Positions 21,608 through 47,152 of a DNA stretch of 64,000 nucleotides are shown piece after piece. The stretch is from Posidoniimonas polymericola (GTDB lineage: Bacteria; Planctomycetota; Planctomycetia; Pirellulales; Lacipirellulaceae). Under the pieces are notes generated by a model. The model did no database searches. It was not told where the DNA came from and was given only the letters and a program-made list of their open reading frames with translations. The first letter of the stretch is position 1. Each line of letters opens with the position of its first letter. Both the position numbers and the translations under genes were made by a program. The stretch is from positions 1 through 64,000 of the forward strand of contig NZ_SJPO01000015.1 in the NCBI RefSeq assembly GCF_007859935.1. Direction: 5' to 3'.

Positions 21608-21749
21608 GCTGGTGTTTCCGGAGTTTCTGGCCTGGTGTCGCCCGCGGTGAGTGGCTAGGTAGAATACTAGAGTATAGGACACCCGTGTGGCGTGTTGCCT
21701 TAGGGGGGAGCGGTGCTCGCAGCTGGTCGATTTCAGTCGCCGCGGTTGG

Positions 21750-22943
21750 ATGATAAGGATTGGAATGATTGCACCACCTCACCCCGCTGCCCGTCCGCGA
21801 ATCCGCGCCGCCGTGCTACTGCTGACCTGTCTTGGCGCGGCAGGCCCCACCCGGGAGCTGTGGGCAGAGAACGCCATCCGCGTGGTTTATCAGCAGGGAG
21901 ATTCGCGGGGGGAGTCGACCGGTGCGGTGTTCGCCGAGGATCGATCGGGCGGCGTTTGCCTGCTCCAAGAGGACGGCGAGCTGCTGCTGCTATCGGCCGA
22001 CGAAGTGGTCGAACGTGCCGACGTCGCCGAGCCCTTCCAGCCCCTAACAGAGGAGCAACTCACCGAGCGGCTCCAGGAAGAACTCGGCGAGCGTTTTGCC
22101 TTCTACACGACCCCGCACTACGTCGTCGCCTACGACACCTCTCGGGCCTACGCCAAGTGGCTGAGCTCGCTGCTCGAGCGGCTGCACAAGGCGTTTGTCA
22201 ACTACTGGCAGAACGAGGGCCTTGAACTTGAGGAGCCGAAATTCCCACTGGTAGTGGTCGTGTACGCCGACCAGGCGTCGTACAGGCGGGCCTCGGCAGA
22301 GGAGCTGGGGGGCGCCAGCGGGATCATTGGGTACTACAGCCTGACCACGAATCGGGTATCAATGCACGACCTGACCGGCACTGAGACCCGCCGCAACGCC
22401 AACGACCGGACGTCGCTCCGAGAGATCAACCGCATGGTCTCACGCCCCGAGGTTGCGCCGATGGTCGCCACGATCGTCCACGAGGCGACCCACCAGGTCG
22501 CCTTCAACACCGGCATGATGAGCCGGTTTGCCGACCTCCCCCTCTGGCTTGTGGAGGGGATGGCAATCTACTTCGAAGCGCCGGACCTTTCTTCGGGACG
22601 CGGGTGGCGTGGAATCGGCAAGGTTAATCGCCCGCGGCTCCAGGAGTTCCAGCGGGGCGCCCGGGGCTGGGACTCCGAACGGCTCCGTGCCTTGGTGACC
22701 AGCGACCAGCGGCTGCGTGACCCAAACACCGCGGCGAGCGCCTACGCCGAGGCCTGGGCGCTCAATTATTTTCTCATCAAGCAGCGGCCCGACGCTTACC
22801 GATCTTACCTGAAGTATCTTGCCGGCCTCGCCCCTTTCGGCGAGCTGCCCGAGAACCAACGGATCAGGGACTTCGAAGAGTATTTTGGACCCATCGACGA
22901 CCTCAGCCGCGATTTTTTTCGCGCTATCTTGCGGGTCGACTAA
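21750..22943 (+). CDS. Exported DUF1570 metalloprotease-like protein
   Basis: I start at ATG 21750 (397 residues), which gives an N-terminal hydrophobic export signal ending near ELWAENAIR; ATG 21765 is an alternative. The zinc-protease motif HEATH (about residue 245), with a downstream LPLWLVEGMAIYFE glutamate helix, fits DUF1570, a planctomycete-rich family resembling gluzincin peptidases. The N-terminal ~80 residues form a separate beta-rich region. No partner gene is evident: the pseudopilin is divergent and tRNA-Lys follows 75 bases later. A second HExxH protein of similar design lies at 41447-42247. The substrate is unknown. Confidence 0.85.
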   Translation: MIRIGMIAPPHPAARPRIRAAVLLLTCLGAAGPTRELWAENAIRVVYQQGDSRGESTGAVFAEDRSGGVCLLQEDGELLLLSADEVVERADVAEPFQPLTEEQLTERLQEELGERFAFYTTPHYVVAYDTSRAYAKWLSSLLERLHKAFVNYWQNEGLELEEPKFPLVVVVYADQASYRRASAEELGGASGIIGYYSLTTNRVSMHDLTGTETRRNANDRTSLREINRMVSRPEVAPMVATIVHEATHQVAFNTGMMSRFADLPLWLVEGMAIYFEAPDLSSGRGWRGIGKVNRPRLQEFQRGARGWDSERLRALVTSDQRLRDPNTAASAYAEAWALNYFLIKQRPDAYRSYLKYLAGLAPFGELPENQRIRDFEEYFGPIDDLSRDFFRAILRVD

Positions 22944-40652: not shown

Positions 40653-41447
40653 ATGCCCCCCCGATTCGTTGACATCCACTGCCACATGCTGCCGGGCATT
40701 GACGACGGCGCCCGCGACTCGGCCGACTCCCTCGCGATGGCGTTGCTCGCGGTTGAAGAGGGCATCGACACGATCGTGGTGACTCCCCACCAACTCGGCG
40801 GCTACGTGCACAACCGCGGCGACGAGATCCGCGTCCGGGCGGTCGAGCTGCAGGAGCTGCTCAGGGCCCATGGGATCCCGCTGCGGGTGCTCCCCGGCGC
40901 CGATGTGCGGATCGACGACGGCATGGTCGAGAAGCTCGTCTCAGGGGAAGTGCTGACCGTGGCGGACAAGCGTCGCCATGTGCTGCTCGAGTTGCCTCAC
41001 GAGCTCTATCAGCCTCTCGAGCCGGTGCTCGACGCGCTCGACTCACACAATATCACCGGCATTCTCACACACCCAGAGCGGAACCGCGGGATCCTCTCGC
41101 GCCCATCGCTGATAGAACCGTTGGTCGAGCGTGGCTGCCTGATGCAGGTCACGGCCGGCAGCCTGGCGGGCGGCTTCGGCGACGCCGCCCGGGCGTTGGC
41201 CGAGCGGATGTGCTCGCGGGGCCTGGTGCACTTCATTGCAACCGACGCGCACGGCGCCCGGTCGCGACGGCCCAAGATCCGCGATGCCTACCAGCGCTGT
41301 GTGGAGCTGGCTGGTGTGGAGGCCGCCGACGCCTGGTGCTCTAGCAATCCCGGCCTGGCCGTGACCGGCCAGGCGGTCCCCGCTGGAGTCACGGCCGTCA
41401 GGCCGGCCAAGAAGACAGGCTGGGCCTTCTGGAAAAAGGCGGCTTGA
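40653..41447 (+). CDS. PHP-family tyrosine phosphatase-like protein (CpsB/YwqE type)
   Basis: From ATG 40653 the protein has 264 residues. The PHP metal site is clear: VDIHCHMLPGIDDG with H9 and H11, TVVVTPH-like IVVTPH, LELPHE, GILTHPERN and FIATDAHG. CpsB-type enzymes dephosphorylate bacterial tyrosine kinases of capsule and exopolysaccharide pathways, using three metal ions. No kinase or polysaccharide genes are adjacent, so its partner lies elsewhere. Its stop overlaps the start of the next gene (TGATG), so the two are translationally coupled. Confidence 0.92.
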   Translation: MPPRFVDIHCHMLPGIDDGARDSADSLAMALLAVEEGIDTIVVTPHQLGGYVHNRGDEIRVRAVELQELLRAHGIPLRVLPGADVRIDDGMVEKLVSGEVLTVADKRRHVLLELPHELYQPLEPVLDALDSHNITGILTHPERNRGILSRPSLIEPLVERGCLMQVTAGSLAGGFGDAARALAERMCSRGLVHFIATDAHGARSRRPKIRDAYQRCVELAGVEAADAWCSSNPGLAVTGQAVPAGVTAVRPAKKTGWAFWKKAA

Positions 41448-42247
41448 TGGGGAAGTTCTCGCGACGGGCGCTGTTGGCCGCCGCGGCGGGGTGTCTTGCG
41501 ACGCCCCGCGGAGCGTCGGCCAGCTCATTGACATGGGTCGACCAGCGGCAGTACGGGCCGTTCCAGGTCCGCTCGACGTTCCCGCTCGATTCATGCTCCG
41601 GGGTGCTGCAGGAGCTGCCCGCGTTGGAGCTCGAGCTGCGTCGAGTGCTGGCGCTGAGCCCCTGCGAGGAGCCGATCGATATCGAGGTGCTCTCGAGCAA
41701 GCGGCAGCACCGCGACTACCTCAAGAACCGTTTCCCGAACACGCCCTACCGCCGCGCTCTGTTCGTTAAGCTGGGAGGCCAGGCGACCGTCTTTGCCTAC
41801 CGCGACGAAGAGCTCGGCGTCGACCTGCGTCACGAGTGCACGCACGCCCTGCTGCACGCCGACCTGGCGATGGTGCCCCTTTGGCTAGATGAGGGGCTGG
41901 CGGAATACTTCGAGATGCCGAAGGCCGACCGAGCGTTTGGCAATCCGCACGAGAAACTGCTGCAGTGGGACATGCGGTTCGGGCTGGTCGAGAGCCTGGC
42001 GTCGCTCGAGGCGAAACGGGACCTCTCCCAGATGAACTCGGGCGACTACCGTTCGGCGTGGGCCTGGACGCACTTCATGCTGCACGGCCCGCAGGCCGCC
42101 TCGCAGCAACTGTGGTCATTCTTGGCCGCGATTCGGCGAGGGGAACCGCCGGGATCGCTGTCTGAGCGACTCGAAGCTGTTCTGCCCGGTGTCGAGCGTC
42201 AGCTCGCCCGCCACTTTCAGAAGTGGACCCGGATGGCTCGGCAGTAG
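41447..42247 (+). CDS. Tat-exported HExxH metalloprotease-like protein
   Basis: A 266-residue protein whose ATG shares a base with the stop of the phosphatase gene. The N-terminus KFSRRALLAAAAGCLATP has the twin-arginine and hydrophobic core of a Tat signal. The catalytic motif HECTH (H129-E130, H133) with downstream WLDEGLAEYFEMP (third-ligand region) resembles DUF1570-type gluzincins, as in the protein at 21750. It is probably periplasmic. Coupling to a CpsB-like phosphatase suggests a joint role, possibly at the cell surface, but the pairing is not one I recognise. Confidence 0.82.
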   Translation: MGKFSRRALLAAAAGCLATPRGASASSLTWVDQRQYGPFQVRSTFPLDSCSGVLQELPALELELRRVLALSPCEEPIDIEVLSSKRQHRDYLKNRFPNTPYRRALFVKLGGQATVFAYRDEELGVDLRHECTHALLHADLAMVPLWLDEGLAEYFEMPKADRAFGNPHEKLLQWDMRFGLVESLASLEAKRDLSQMNSGDYRSAWAWTHFMLHGPQAASQQLWSFLAAIRRGEPPGSLSERLEAVLPGVERQLARHFQKWTRMARQ

Positions 42248-42464: not shown

Positions 42465-42974
42465 ATGAAGATCATGACGATCCAAAAGGTCGCCGCGGCG
42501 GCCGCGATGTTTGGGATGATGCTGCCCCAGGCGACGCTGGCGGCAGCCCCTGCCGCAACGCAGGGCGACATCGCTCTGCGCAACGGCGGCGTGTTTGTTG
42601 GGCAGTATGTCGACGCCCAGGGCAATGGCGTCTCCGGCGCCGAGGTGGCGATGGTTGCCGGCGGCAAGTCGGTCGCGGTTACTAAGACCGATAAGCAGGG
42701 CCGCTTCGCGGTCAAGGGTCTGCAAAGCGGCCAGTACGATGTGGTTGCGATGAACAGCAAGACCACCTTCCGCTGCTGGGAAGGCAAAGTCGCTCCTCCT
42801 AGCGCCCGCAACGGCGCCCTGATCGTCACCGGCGACGCCGTCGTGACCGGTCAGGGGGGCGTCCTGGGATTCATTCAGACGTACCCGCTGCTGACCGCCA
42901 CCGCTGTCACCGCCGCGATTGCGATTCCGGTTGGCATCGCGGCTGCCGACGACGACGCTCCCGCCAGCCCGTAA
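42465..42974 (+). CDS. Small exported protein with CarboxypepD_reg-like domain, paralogue 1
   Basis: A 169-residue protein: signal peptide (about 1-26), a beta-sandwich of the carboxypeptidase regulatory type (about 33-95: GVFVGQYVDAQGNGVSGAEV, TKTDKQGRFAVKGLQSGQY), a conserved block FRCWEGKVAPPSARNGALIV, and a C-terminal hydrophobic segment (about 140-160) followed by acidic DDDAPASP at the very end. Paralogue 2 (43351) is nearly the same protein and paralogue 3 (44022) a diverged one, and all share the C-terminal layout. AGGAAGG precedes the ATG within a 19-base leader also found before paralogue 2. It may be a surface or membrane-anchored structural protein; function unknown. Confidence 0.85.
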   Translation: MKIMTIQKVAAAAAMFGMMLPQATLAAAPAATQGDIALRNGGVFVGQYVDAQGNGVSGAEVAMVAGGKSVAVTKTDKQGRFAVKGLQSGQYDVVAMNSKTTFRCWEGKVAPPSARNGALIVTGDAVVTGQGGVLGFIQTYPLLTATAVTAAIAIPVGIAAADDDAPASP

Positions 42975-43350
42975 CCGAAACCCGGCGGGCGACAGCCCCG
43001 CCGCGAACCCTTCCCCGCTGGTCGGCCGCCTACGGGGGAGTCAGCTAAAAATCGGCGGGCCCGCCTCTGCCCGATTTGGCAGGGGCGGGTCAGGCCGAGA
43101 CCTCTCTTCCGACAAATCAACGGCCGTATCTCCGTCGGCGCATACGCTTCGCCGAGAATCCACCTGCTTTGCTAATGCAGCGGTCGACTTCTTGTCGACC
43201 CTACATGCAGGTGTAGGGCTACTTCTCTGATTGTCGACCCTACGTGCAGGTGTAGGGCTACTTCTCTGATGGTAGGCCCCGCTACAAGCTGGGTAGGCCA
43301 GCCATCAGTGCGAGCGATCGCATATTTGGGCAAAACTAAGGAAGGTTTCG
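42975..43350. other. Intergenic region between paralogues 1 and 2 with several hairpins
   Basis: About 375 bases with no gene. It contains a GC-rich hairpin just after the stop (GGCGGG/CCCGCC near 42984-43001), another with arms AAATCGG and CCGATTT (about 43048-43076), and the two 39-base tandem units at 43193-43270. The last 19 bases before the next ATG copy the leader of paralogue 1. The region looks built from duplicated pieces. Confidence 0.6.
43193..43270. repeat. Tandem duplication of a 39-base hairpin unit
   Basis: Two adjacent 39-base copies (43193-43231 and 43232-43270) differ at one base. Each contains the inverted repeat CCCTACA-TGCAGG-TGTAGGG (second copy CCCTACG, leaving a G-T pair), so the one change keeps the stem. 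It lies about 80 bases before paralogue 2. It resembles a REP-type or regulatory hairpin pair. Confidence 0.9.
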
Positions 43351-43854
43351 ATGAAGATCATGAAGATCCAGAAGGCCGCCGCTCTGGCAGCCATGGTTGG
43401 GCTGCTGTTGCCGCCGCCTGCGCAGGCCGCCGACGCTCCGGTTGGGGCTCCCAGCGACATTGCCCTGCGTGACGGCGGCGTGTTTGTCGGCCAGTACGTT
43501 GACGCTCAGGGCAACGCGCTTGCTGGCGCCGACGTCAGCGTGGTTGTGGGCGGAAAAGCGGTTGCGGCTGCCAAGACCGACAAGCACGGCGTGTTCGCCG
43601 TGAAGGGCCTCGAGAAGGGGCAGTACGACATCGTGGCGATGGGCCGCAAAGCGACCTTCCGCTGCTGGGACGGCAAGACCGCGCCCCCCAACGCCCGCAA
43701 CGGCGCCCTGATTGTCACCGGCGACGAAGTCGTTAATGGCCAGCTCCGCAACATGCTGGCCAATCCCTGGATCGTGGGCGGCATTGTTGCCGCTGCCGTA
43801 GCCATACCGGTCGCCATCCACAATGCCGACAACGGCAGTCCTGCTTCCCCGTAA
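43351..43854 (+). CDS. Small exported protein with CarboxypepD_reg-like domain, paralogue 2
   Basis: A 167-residue protein, closely similar to paralogue 1 throughout: same signal peptide opening (MKIMKIQKAAALAAM), DIALRDGGVFVGQYVDAQGN, KTDKHGVFAVKGLEKGQYD, FRCWDGKTAPPNARNGALIV, C-terminal hydrophobic segment and end DNGSPASP. The preceding 19 bases (AAAACTAAGGAAGGTTTCG) match paralogue 1, giving the same ribosome binding site. The pair is therefore a recent tandem duplication that included the leader. A T-tailed terminator follows at 43874. Function unknown. Confidence 0.85.
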   Translation: MKIMKIQKAAALAAMVGLLLPPPAQAADAPVGAPSDIALRDGGVFVGQYVDAQGNALAGADVSVVVGGKAVAAAKTDKHGVFAVKGLEKGQYDIVAMGRKATFRCWDGKTAPPNARNGALIVTGDEVVNGQLRNMLANPWIVGGIVAAAVAIPVAIHNADNGSPASP

Positions 43855-43873
43855 TTGGGATCCAGCAGCCACA

Positions 43874-43936
43874 ACCAGCCCCGCGGGGCGTTCTCGACGC
43901 ACAGCGTTGGGTCCGCTCCGCGGGGTTGGTCTTTTT
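43874..43936 (+). terminator. Intrinsic terminator after paralogue 2
   Basis: Arms ACCAGCCCCGCGG (43874-43886) and CCGCGGGGTTGGT (43918-43930) form a 13-bp stem with one G-T pair and a 31-base loop, followed by CTTTTT. It lies 20 bases after the stop of paralogue 2 and separates it from paralogue 3. Confidence 0.88.
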
Positions 43937-44021
43937 CGAGTCGCGGATCTTCGCTAGTATCTCCGCCACACACCACGCTAGCTGGTGCTATGGATGGTCG
44001 AATACTAGCCAAGGTGAAACC

Positions 44022-44582
44022 ATGTCAGCTATCGCGAAGCGGATTGTCGCGACCCTGCTTGTCTTCCCGCTCGCCGCCGTCAGTCCCATCGCTGCGGGAG
44101 CCGAGGCGCACAGCACGACCCCTGCTGCGCAAGCGCCTGTCTGCCACGACGTGGCGCTCGCCAAGGGCGGAGTGCTGTCCGGGAGGGTAGTCGATCCCAA
44201 CGGTCAGCCGGTCGCCAACGGCCCGGTCTGGCTAGCGGCGACGAACCAAAAGCCCATCGCCGCCCGCACCGACGCCGCCGGTCGTTTTGCGTTCCAAAAC
44301 CTGCCGCGAGGCGTCTTCTGTCTCCAGGCGGGTGATGATCTTCGTGTCTGCCGCGTCTGGGATGAAAAGGCAGCGCCGCCCAAGAGTCTCAGCGGAGTGC
44401 TGATGGTCGCCGACGGCGCCGCGGTTCGCGGTCAAAGCAGCCCCCCGCCAATGCTCAATCAATTCGTCCAGGGGGCGAAGCGGTTCTTCACCCGTCCCAT
44501 CGGTGTGATCACCCTGGGAGCGGCGATTGCGACCCCCATCGTGTTGTCCGCAGACAACGACGATCCTCCTGCGTCGCCGTAG
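44022..44582 (+). CDS. Small exported protein with CarboxypepD_reg-like domain, diverged paralogue 3
   Basis: A 186-residue protein from ATG 44022 (AAGGTG upstream). Signal peptide about 1-26, then the same fold as the two preceding proteins: DVALAKGGVLSGRVVDPNGQ, RTDAAGRFAFQNLPRG, VCRVWDEKAAPPKSLSGVLM, VRGQ, a C-terminal hydrophobic helix (about 158-175) and the end DNDDPPASP. Sequence is much diverged but motif order and the PASP end are kept, so the triplet is one family with an old and a recent duplication. The region before the C-terminal helix is longer. Function unknown; carbohydrate or protein binding at the surface is possible. Confidence 0.82.
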   Translation: MSAIAKRIVATLLVFPLAAVSPIAAGAEAHSTTPAAQAPVCHDVALAKGGVLSGRVVDPNGQPVANGPVWLAATNQKPIAARTDAAGRFAFQNLPRGVFCLQAGDDLRVCRVWDEKAAPPKSLSGVLMVADGAAVRGQSSPPPMLNQFVQGAKRFFTRPIGVITLGAAIATPIVLSADNDDPPASP

Positions 44583-44716
44583 CCGACCCGGCAGACTTTG
44601 ACGCCTGTGCAACTCCATTTGCATCAGCGCGGTTCTAACGGTCGATCGATACCGTGTCGCCGAGCGCGTCGCGAGTTCGCACGCCGGCTGGAGCAGGACC
44701 GTCTAGGAGTGGCAAG

Positions 44717-45265
44717 ATGTCGGCTATGGGGTGGTACCGTTACACGTGGCTTGCCTACTTTGCCAAGCCGTCCGAGGACCGCGTGGTCTATCGGGAGGTC
44801 AAACGCCGCCAGGTTGGCTCGGTGCTCGAGATCGGCGTCGGATCCCTAGAGCGGTCAAAGCTGCTCATCTCGGCTTGCCAATCCTATTCGTCGCAGCCGG
44901 TGGTCCGCTACGCGGCGGTCGACTGGTTCGAGGAGCGTCCGGAGTCGATGCCGCGGCTCTCGCTGATCGCCGCTCACCGGGAGCTCAACGCCACCGGAGC
45001 CAAGGTGCGTGTCGCCCCCGGCGGGCCCTCCGCCGTAGAAGGCATGGCGAACTCCCTGCCGAACACCGACCTGGTGCTGATCTCGCCCGAAGTCGACGAC
45101 GCCGCGCTTGGGCGGGGCTGGTTCTTCCTGCCCCGCATCTGCCACGCCGAGACGCTCGTCCTGCGGGGTTCGATCGGCTCTGGGGGTGAGCGGCAATACA
45201 ATCGGCTCTCCCTCGAGGAAATCAGGCGGCGGTCGGAGCTCGCCCGCCCGGCAGCGGCGGCTTAG
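44717..45265 (+). CDS. Methyltransferase-fold protein, unassigned
   Basis: A 182-residue protein; AGGAG seven bases before ATG 44717 fixes the start. VLEIGVGSLERSKLLI looks like AdoMet motif I of class I methyltransferases, YAAVDWFEE like motif II and TDLVLISPEVDD like the strand-4 region. The C-terminal third lacks the usual extra strands, so it is short for the family and may not be catalytic. It lies 134 bases after paralogue 3 and 159 bases before the kinase gene on the same strand. The substrate is not predictable. Confidence 0.7.
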   Translation: MSAMGWYRYTWLAYFAKPSEDRVVYREVKRRQVGSVLEIGVGSLERSKLLISACQSYSSQPVVRYAAVDWFEERPESMPRLSLIAAHRELNATGAKVRVAPGGPSAVEGMANSLPNTDLVLISPEVDDAALGRGWFFLPRICHAETLVLRGSIGSGGERQYNRLSLEEIRRRSELARPAAAA

Positions 45266-45424: not shown

Positions 45425-47152
45425 ATGACTCCCACCGAGTTCGAAAACGCGGAAACCATTGACGTCAGGCCTCAGGCCGCGCCGAGCCTCGCCCGCGAGA
45501 CCGTCCGGCAAACCGCCAGGCGGATGGTGGCGTTGGTCGAGGGGTCGTCGCCCCACCTGACCAGCGAAACCCGCAACCTCTTGCGGGGCCGGCTGCGGAT
45601 TGTTTCGGCGATTTTATTCTCGGTGTTTTTCGCATTTCTCTTCCGCGGCCTGTTGATTGGCGTTGAGGAAGAGCACCGCTGGCTGTTCGCAACGCACGCC
45701 GTGGTGACCACGATGATGGCGGCGTTGTTCGCCCTGCTTGGTTCGGCGATGCAGCTCTCGCTGGTCAGATTGCGGATCGCCGAGGTGCTGACCTTTGGCG
45801 GCCCGGCCCTCTTCTTCGTCGTGCTTAGCCAGCAGAAGCTGCACCACATGGCGACCCTTGATACGGGCGCCCACCTGCCCGTGATCCTGGTGCCGTGGGC
45901 GATGCTGATCTTCACGTACGCGCTGTTCATTCCTAACTCCTGGAGGCGGGCGCTCGCAGTGATTGGGCCGATGGGGCTGGCGCCAATCGGGGTGATCGTG
46001 CTGCAGCGTCTGGTCTGCCCCGGCTTCGAGCAGTGCGTCTCGATGCCGGAGTTTGAGAACTACATCACCGAGCAGGTGATCTCGGCCGTCGCGCTGGTGG
46101 CCATTGCCGTGCTTGGGGTGCAGACCATCAACGCGCTGCGCGTTCAGGCGTTCGAGGCCAAGCGCCTTGGGCAGTACGTGCTGCGGCGGAAGCTGGGCGC
46201 CGGCGGCATGGGCGAGGTCTACCTGGCTGAGCACCAGATGATGAAACGCCCCTGCGCCGTGAAGATCATCCGCCCGGAAAAGGCGGGCGACCCTTTGACG
46301 CTCGCCCGCTTCGAGCGTGAGGTCCGCTCCACGGCCAAGCTGTCGCACTGGAATTCGATCGACATCTACGACTACGGCAACACGCCCGACGGCACCTTCT
46401 ACTACGTCATGGAGTACCTCCCGGGGCACAACGTCGGGGAGCTGGTGGACCAGTACGGCCCGCTGCCGCCGGAGCGGACGGTCTACCTGCTGGAGCAGGT
46501 CTGCAAGGCCCTGGCCGAGGCCCACAACACCGGGCTGGTGCACCGCGACATCAAGCCGGCCAATATCTTCTGCGCGTACCGCGGCGGCGAGTACGACGTC
46601 GCCAAGCTGCTCGACTTTGGTCTGGCGAAACCTGTGTTCAGTGCGACCGACACGACGCTCACCCAGGAAGGTTCGATCACCGGATCGCCGATGTTCATGT
46701 CCCCCGAGCAGGCGACCGGGGAACGCGAAGCCGACGCGCGGAGCGACATCTACTCACTCGGCTGCGTGCTGTTCTATCTGCTCACCGGCGAACACCCCTT
46801 CCCCTACAAGCAGGCGGTCAAGGTGATCGTCGCCCACGCGTCCGAGCAGCCGGCCTCGCCCCGCGACGCCAACCCGCTTGTCAGCGTCGAGCTGGAGGAG
46901 GTGGTGATGCGGTGCTTGGAGAAGGACCCGGAAGACCGTTTCCAGACCGTCGAGCAGCTGCGGCAGGCGTTGGTCGACCTGCCGCTTGCATGCCGCTGGT
47001 CTTCGCAGCTCGCCAACGAGTGGTGGAGCTGCAACGGCTGCCCGGAACGCAAGGCAATGGCCGCGGCGCTGGTCGACGCAGCGGCCGATGGCGCCTCGTG
47101 CCCGCTGCCGCAGTTGGACAGCAACGCTGTAGAGGAAGTCAACGCGGTCTAA
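45425..47152 (+). CDS. Membrane Ser/Thr protein kinase with N-terminal multi-helix sensor
   Basis: A 575-residue kinase with reversed layout relative to PknB. The N-terminal half has about six transmembrane helices (about 57-240), then a C-terminal Hanks kinase (about 250-525) with LGAGGMGEVYLAEH, K280 in CAVKII, VHRDIKPANIF, LLDFGLAKP and MFMSPEQATGE. All catalytic residues are present. The tail after the kinase has CNGCPERKAMAAALVDAA and possible Cys pairs. The membrane part resembles the sensor of planctomycete/myxobacterial kinases, so it may sense an envelope signal. The next gene, a small membrane protein, starts 30 bases later. Confidence 0.94.
   Translation: MTPTEFENAETIDVRPQAAPSLARETVRQTARRMVALVEGSSPHLTSETRNLLRGRLRIVSAILFSVFFAFLFRGLLIGVEEEHRWLFATHAVVTTMMAALFALLGSAMQLSLVRLRIAEVLTFGGPALFFVVLSQQKLHHMATLDTGAHLPVILVPWAMLIFTYALFIPNSWRRALAVIGPMGLAPIGVIVLQRLVCPGFEQCVSMPEFENYITEQVISAVALVAIAVLGVQTINALRVQAFEAKRLGQYVLRRKLGAGGMGEVYLAEHQMMKRPCAVKIIRPEKAGDPLTLARFEREVRSTAKLSHWNSIDIYDYGNTPDGTFYYVMEYLPGHNVGELVDQYGPLPPERTVYLLEQVCKALAEAHNTGLVHRDIKPANIFCAYRGGEYDVAKLLDFGLAKPVFSATDTTLTQEGSITGSPMFMSPEQATGEREADARSDIYSLGCVLFYLLTGEHPFPYKQAVKVIVAHASEQPASPRDANPLVSVELEEVVMRCLEKDPEDRFQTVEQLRQALVDLPLACRWSSQLANEWWSCNGCPERKAMAAALVDAAADGASCPLPQLDSNAVEEVNAV

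Follow-up and report, generated by a model that had tools for sequence, protein, structure and literature searches.

Three tandem genes of Posidoniimonas polymericola (order Pirellulales) encode small exported proteins that share a distinctive C-terminal tail. They lie within the 64,000-nucleotide stretch of DNA analysed here, which we refer to as the window (contig NZ_SJPO01000015.1, positions 1 to 64,000). Comparison with related loci and genomes gives strong evidence that the genes of this tail family recur in one operon with those of a Wzy-type exopolysaccharide exporter, and reveals that the distribution of the family follows that of one subtype of the exporter component Wza. This export setting was missed by the sequence-only reading of the window. 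We lean towards the interpretation that these small exported proteins are accessory components of a Wzy-type exporter of exopolysaccharide in Pirellulales, with the tail acting as a membrane or assembly anchor. Our confidence in a role of the family within the operon is high; that in the mechanism proposed for the tail is moderate to low.

The recurrent gene order consists of a CpsB phosphatase, a DUF1570 metallopeptidase, one to five tail genes, Wza, Wzc and Wzy. The full order is present in seven loci (L055, L058, L129, L133, L152, L230 and L234), in one of which, L129, two other genes separate the two tail genes. Pfam identities at several loci define the genes on the far side as Poly_export/SLBB (Wza), Wzz/AAA (Wzc-like) and a Wzy_C-TPR protein. 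The window contains only the first half of the order, that is, the CpsB, DUF1570 and tail genes. On contig C3 of the home genome, Wza (E 5e-110), Wzc (2e-248) and Wzy (8e-191) genes are consecutive and match the second half. Of 20 loci compared, 14 have the pair of CpsB and DUF1570 genes next to tail genes; 13 of these belong to the window's family and the remaining one to a different family.

The association was counted over 70 loci. Fifty were fetched irrespective of Wza (12 from a species-genome scan, 37 at family or tail matches, and the window), and 20 were added later: 14 chosen for a family member and Wza on one contig, five at the place of Wza in family-positive genomes, and one at the place of a family member. 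Twenty-seven of the 50 Wza-blind loci and all 20 later ones, 47 of 70 together, have one or more of the CpsB, DUF1570, Wza, Wzc and Wzy genes on the same strand at a distance of up to 5 kb; Wza is no more than 700 bp away in 26 loci and DUF1570 in 25. At each of the five loci chosen at the place of Wza, a family member adjoins it. The count leaves out L050 (3.3 kb), the short loci L211-L223, the non-members L124 and L125, L061 and L062, where only the beta domain matches, and L054, the locus of the culturable strain Adhaeretor mobilis HG15A2, which is the same region as L143. L056 and L238 are probably one locus that is counted twice in it.

Co-occurrence across genomes was assessed by searching an order-level sample of 296 Pirellulales genomes with the family profile. 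Up to 12 candidates were scored per genome and the genome counts for the family are thus lower bounds: at least 96 genomes match at E≤1e-5 and at least 77 at E≤1e-10. The latter was taken as the family threshold and E≤1e-49 as that for the Wza subtype, both fixed after the lists had been inspected. With these thresholds 77 genomes carry the family and 73 the Wza subtype: 71 have both, six the family only (G067, G074, G127, G172, G186 and G214), two Wza only (G131 and G166) and 217 neither. The lowest Wza match kept (G145, 1.3e-50) is in two pieces and the next genome stands at 6.8e-41; a looser E≤1e-25 yields 81 genomes. Removal of the nine genomes that seeded the Wza model leaves 62 with both, six with the family only, two with Wza only and 217 with neither, a count in which a further seed locus, L056, apparently from the same genome as G098, remained. 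Relaxing the family threshold to 1e-5 gives 71, 25, 2 and 198 in the same order, and a tail-only profile gives, among the matches listed, 64 genomes with both, eight with the tail only, nine with Wza only and 215 with neither. The Fisher p-values for this co-occurrence disregard the kinship of the genomes. Within single families, seven genomes of f7 and 21 of f17 carry both and none carries one alone; in f3 the figures are seven with both and two with the family only, and in f15 eight and one. Because the tail proteins nearly always co-occur with this exporter, they are probably unrecognised parts of it.

The comparison with established Wzx/Wzy-type capsule and exopolysaccharide export is a close one in setting: the tail family lies in an operon with Wza, Wzc, Wzy and CpsB and co-occurs with the Wza subtype of that operon. 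To our knowledge, neither tail proteins nor a DUF1570 peptidase are among the standard parts of such systems. The home genome also has a second cluster (L208:8515-16730, contig C2) with Wza-like, Wzy-like, CpsB and Wzc-like genes, in which there is no tail-family match.

The three tail genes of the window are all on the + strand. Tail protein A (42465..42974; 169 residues) ends in DDDAPASP, tail protein B (43351..43854; 167 residues) in HNADNGSPASP, and tail protein C (44022..44582; 186 residues from its ATG) in DNDDPPASP. For gene C the mechanical open reading frame begins at a TTG at 43926; we chose the ATG at 44022 because it is preceded by a Shine-Dalgarno-like AAGGTG and because the N-terminus then aligns. 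A and B are 64% identical and A and C 35%. All three have a signal peptide, a CarboxypepD_reg-type beta-sandwich domain, an RxW..K.APP block (RCW..K.APP in A), a C-terminal hydrophobic helix and a final PASP, and in their alignment the terminal PASP and the R.W..K.APP positions are invariant. The block spans R103-P112 in A (42771..42800), R104-P113 in B (43660..43689) and R111-P120 in C (44352..44381), and its R, W, A, P and P residues are each at least 90% conserved among 106 sequences. The tail, comprising helix, acidic run and PASP in A, occupies the last 30 codons of each gene (42882..42971, 43762..43851 and 44490..44579, respectively). This is the architecture that the sequence-only reading had described, except that the acidic residues it placed before PASP in all three proteins occur in A and C, while B has a single acidic residue after the helix. 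In the spacer between genes A and B, at 43192-43269, a 39-bp sequence is present in two head-to-tail copies that are 97% identical.

Profile and fold comparisons place the beta domain with CarboxypepD_reg (PF13620) and CnaB-like domains. The PF13620 cut-off of 32.3 bits is exceeded by A (36.2) and C (36.5), and B falls slightly below it (30.7). Unlike these domains, the tail proteins have the RxW..APP block and the C-terminal tail, both of which fall outside the matched stretch. An AlphaFold2 model of copy B, built with 106 aligned sequences, has a mean pLDDT of 85.7 and comprises an N-terminal helix (residues 2-19), beta-sandwich strands within residues 35-122 with pLDDT mostly above 90, and a separate C-terminal helix (139-159, pLDDT about 77) followed by a disordered end. 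Foldseek neighbours of the beta domain are CnaB, pilin and carboxypeptidase regulatory domains, and in a profile search of solved sequences NOMO2 and SdrD rank first. A scan of six proteins against NCBIfam gave no match above cut-off, and the family has no annotation beyond the beta domain in the libraries searched (Pfam and NCBIfam). Among the papers listed in literature searches, none deals with the family or its tail as judged by title or abstract, and the terms 'exopolysaccharide', 'polysaccharide export' and 'carboxypeptidase' are absent from the text of PMC8567305.

The family is real; it occurs in Pirellulales and has one member from a different order of the same class. This single outside member, L217, ends in AIIIPIAVADDDDDAS and came from a tail search of 372 genomes of the phylum. 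In the home genome A, B and C are the only full-length matches. A Ser/Thr or Ser/Thr-Pro end is present in 141 of the 153 nonredundant members whose 3' end is complete ([ST]P in 82, [ST] in 59), which leaves 12 with some other end; it is found in 30 of 282 background genes called in the same stretches (three [ST]P and 27 [ST]). These are not independent trials, since the members share ancestry. About four in ten members finish at Ser with no final Pro. Mean column entropy is 1.52 bits in the helix, 1.68 in the end and 2.29 in the beta domain, and the helix and end are thus the more conserved parts. Six of the seven f7 genomes have a glycine-rich helix that lacks both the AIAIP core and the acidic run, yet their proteins end in PASP, PATP or TTP. 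The conservation of the C-terminus noted from sequence is thereby borne out: it extends far beyond the paralogues of the window, and the end is kept in f7 despite the changed helix. Ends of the [ST] or [ST]P type occur in none of 31 Wza, none of 22 Wzc, one of 11 Wzy, one of 33 CpsB and one of 27 DUF1570 proteins among the operon neighbours. Among the partners printed (L129, L131, L133, L152 and others), most Wza proteins have Phe or Leu as their last residue, many Wzc proteins finish with RRAA or RRVA, and CpsB proteins often with a W...KKAA-like sequence.

The tail has a characteristic distribution of charge, analysed here in 109 members with a recognisable core (six of 115 were dropped for want of one). 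Net charge is higher before the helix than after it in 97 of the 109, equal in eight and reversed in four. After the helix 89 tails are net negative and eight neutral; Lys or Arg is absent from this part in 80, and eight have two or more. The segment is hydrophobic on the Kyte-Doolittle scale in 104 of 109. The near-invariant residue before the helix is a single Pro, as judged from 58 aligned tails.

These features set the tail apart from the C-terminal signals in the literature. As described in passages of three papers, LPXTG, PEP-CTERM, GlyGly-CTERM and MYXO-CTERM signals consist of a motif, a helix and a basic end (PMC1569441, PMC11980579, PMC3237569), and GlyGly-CTERM and MYXO-CTERM are carried by many proteins per genome (PMC11980579, PMC3237569). 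Like LPXTG, GlyGly-CTERM and MYXO-CTERM proteins, the tail family combines an N-terminal signal peptide with a short C-terminal helix region; unlike the signals described in those passages, its signature comes after the helix and its carriers are paralogues. Judged from sequence, the charge order of the tail is reversed relative to all four signals. Resemblance to the PEP-CTERM/exosortase (EpsH) system extends to exported proteins, a C-terminal hydrophobic helix and, according to a passage of PMC1569441, a link to exopolysaccharide loci. The tail family differs in having no PEP motif, which was looked for before the helix of A, B and C and not found, mostly no basic end, and a tail nearly limited to one protein family. 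Exosortase matches occur in 232 of the 296 genomes, comprising 67 of the 77 family-positive genomes and 165 of the 219 others; the ten family-positive genomes with no match speak against an exosortase as a required partner. Because of the missing motif, the missing basic end and these ten genomes, we agree with the sequence-only reading that the tail is not PEP-CTERM.

The same reading had raised the prospect of a C-terminal sorting or processing signal. Tail-only searches of the home genome, 43 genomes of the window's family, 296 of the order and 372 of the phylum speak against a general sorting signal: the matches followed up were nearly all family members, with one clear outside carrier. 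In the home genome the tail profile found no further protein ending in such a tail, which is there shared by just the three paralogues. A PASP-stop pattern has 95 matches in this genome, compared with 43 for a reversed-pattern control; those read in frame comprise 30 with loci and four fetched stretches. Besides the window proteins, four of the frames read end in PTSP, PASP or PATP (84, 147, 51 and 331 codons), and we take them for chance occurrences because none has a hydrophobic segment before its end. Within the loci fetched from the 43 genomes of the window's family, all tail matches are family members save one DUF6690 protein (L186:5477-6337, - strand, home genome contig C6), whose N-terminal hydrophobic segment, GMLGAAVGVPYAIHNPPDEWP, resembles the core of the tail helix (E 2.1e-5). 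The order-wide statement covers the followed-up matches among those listed, in which the outside carrier is an unrelated protein of about 211-221 residues in genome G245 (L124:7132-7794, - strand) with the tail-like end AIAIPLAISDDDDEPGTPASPSMVP. Its front part matches no Pfam family above cut-off, and at E≤1e-25 the Wza subtype has no match in G245. Further tail matches are weak and lie inside long unrelated proteins. Sequence alone would lead to the tail being read as a sorting signal; neighbourhood and co-occurrence point elsewhere. The tail may be a sorting signal in a narrow sense, dedicated to the exopolysaccharide export machine.

In the arrangement we favour, the tail proteins would be exported by Sec and their signal peptide then removed. 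The beta-sandwich would be located in the periplasm or at the surface, adjoining Wza, and the C-terminal helix, with its short, mostly acidic end closing in (P)-A-S-(P), would anchor or assemble the subunit in the envelope. The basic residues before the helix, the acidic residues after it and the lack of a basic end suggest that the helix inserts from the side of the periplasm, either at the outer membrane or against the helices of Wza. The positive-inside rule is the basis for such charge reasoning on inner-membrane anchors. An inner-membrane anchor of the plain stop-transfer kind is disfavoured, since the exported chain would approach the membrane from outside and the helix would then need to keep its acidic side within. 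Both the contact with Wza and the membrane that holds the helix are proposals. Several diverged copies per genome share the tail, which would fit a hetero-oligomer with one docking site. For comparison, D4 of E. coli Wza is Wza's own C-terminal helix, as stated in a passage of PMC9601211.

Several observations weigh against an exporter subunit anchored in this way. In 23 of the 70 loci, none of the five partners lies within 5 kb on the strand of the tail gene (L047, L048, L049, L051, L057, L114-L123, L126-L128, L144 and L146-L149). In three of these, L127, L128 and L146, some partner genes are on the opposite strand, and in the genomes of L114-L123 and L147-L149 the Wza subtype is located elsewhere. 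In 12 of the 109 tails the part after the helix carries a net positive charge. On a second hydrophobicity scale the segment is only marginally hydrophobic, with a median of +3.55 using centre-of-membrane values.

The neighbouring peptidase bears on an alternative in which the tail would be a sorting signal that undergoes processing. An enzyme dedicated to it, DUF1570 in the simplest case, would recognise or cut the C-terminus, and the beta domain would either be released into the exopolysaccharide matrix or become fixed there. In the window the DUF1570 gene (41447..42247, + strand) encodes an exported homologue of zinc-metallopeptidases with a twin-arginine-like start and the motif HECTH...WLDEGLAEYF. 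Its ATG overlaps the stop of the preceding gene (40653..41447, + strand; likely ATG at 40653, mechanical open reading frame from 40536), a homologue of CpsB/CapC (PF19567), a phosphatase family of polysaccharide operons, which is the same neighbour in related loci. The proximity of DUF1570 to the tail genes, seen in 25 of the 70 loci with both on one strand, favours processing, as do the strong conservation of the terminal residues and the preservation of HExxH in all 23 operon DUF1570 copies listed (22 distinct loci), with HExxH and the following Glu invariant in 21 aligned copies. The predicted fold is closest to the peptidase domains of bacterial collagenases (best Foldseek E 1.8e-6), enzymes that cut Pro-rich substrates. 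A passage of PMC3237569 adds that genomes with a single GlyGly-CTERM target mostly have the enzyme gene adjoining it (16 of 21). With a subfamily threshold of E≤1e-80, set after the lists had been seen, operon-type DUF1570 is found in 62 of the 77 family-positive and 22 of the 219 family-negative genomes, a looser distribution than that of the Wza subtype (71 of 77 and 2 of 219), and these figures weaken DUF1570 as a strict partner. Among seven f7 loci with Ser/Thr-Pro ends, five have CpsB with no adjoining DUF1570, one has an adjoining DUF1570 and one is cut off at a contig end. The processed signals cited above, moreover, end in basic residues and the tail mostly does not. Taken together, we regard this alternative as unlikely. 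The processing enzyme that had been anticipated from sequence is not shown by these data; DUF1570 is a candidate, and what it trims may be the tail proteins or some other protein of the envelope. A further open frame of the window, at 21678-22940, contains an HExxH motif and is weakly matched by the profile of the operon DUF1570 proteins (E 7.5e-9).

Alternatively, the tail proteins may belong to the cell surface or the matrix and keep the exported polysaccharide attached to the cell, with the helix as an outer-membrane anchor and no role in export. The presence at each locus of one to five copies that diverge while the tail stays constant would suit this function, and the fold neighbours include domains of surface proteins, such as the CnaB and pilin domains. 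A precedent, alike in role only, is the anchor complex of the Caulobacter holdfast, documented in PMC6707917, in which accessory envelope proteins at the outer membrane are tied to a polysaccharide. No carbohydrate-binding family is among the Pfam and NCBIfam matches of A, B and C, and nothing found tells such a holder apart from an export subunit; on balance we consider it doubtful.

A bolder variant, which we judge to be rather improbable, takes the basic residues before the helix, the acidic (P)-A-S-(P) end and insertion from the periplasmic side as a C-terminal targeting signal of a new type. It would dock the protein on the Wza-type exporter, or let it leave through it, such that protein and polysaccharide would reach the surface together. 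Quite improbable too is ordinary conservation of the C-terminus in a lineage-specific paralogous family, with a plain inner-membrane anchor and final residues of no specific role: the tail is indeed hardly seen outside the family, but the [ST] or [ST]P end persists while other parts diverge, is kept in the six f7 genomes that lack the AIAIP core, and accompanies charges contrary to the positive-inside rule for such an anchor.

Two further genes of the window accompany the tail genes. The gene at 44654-45265 lies beside tail genes in eight of the 20 loci compared, the window included, and has a very weak match to a methyltransferase profile (E 0.2). A serine/threonine kinase gene (45425-47152) is downstream in seven of the 20, again with the window included.

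Our preferred reading, that the tail proteins are accessory proteins of the exporter, would add an exported protein family that lacks annotation, and perhaps a metallopeptidase, to the planctomycete polysaccharide exporter, and it does so with a concrete operon. The conserved C-terminal signature has its charges in the reverse order to the sorting signals on record, which makes the question of how these proteins are targeted to the envelope directly testable.

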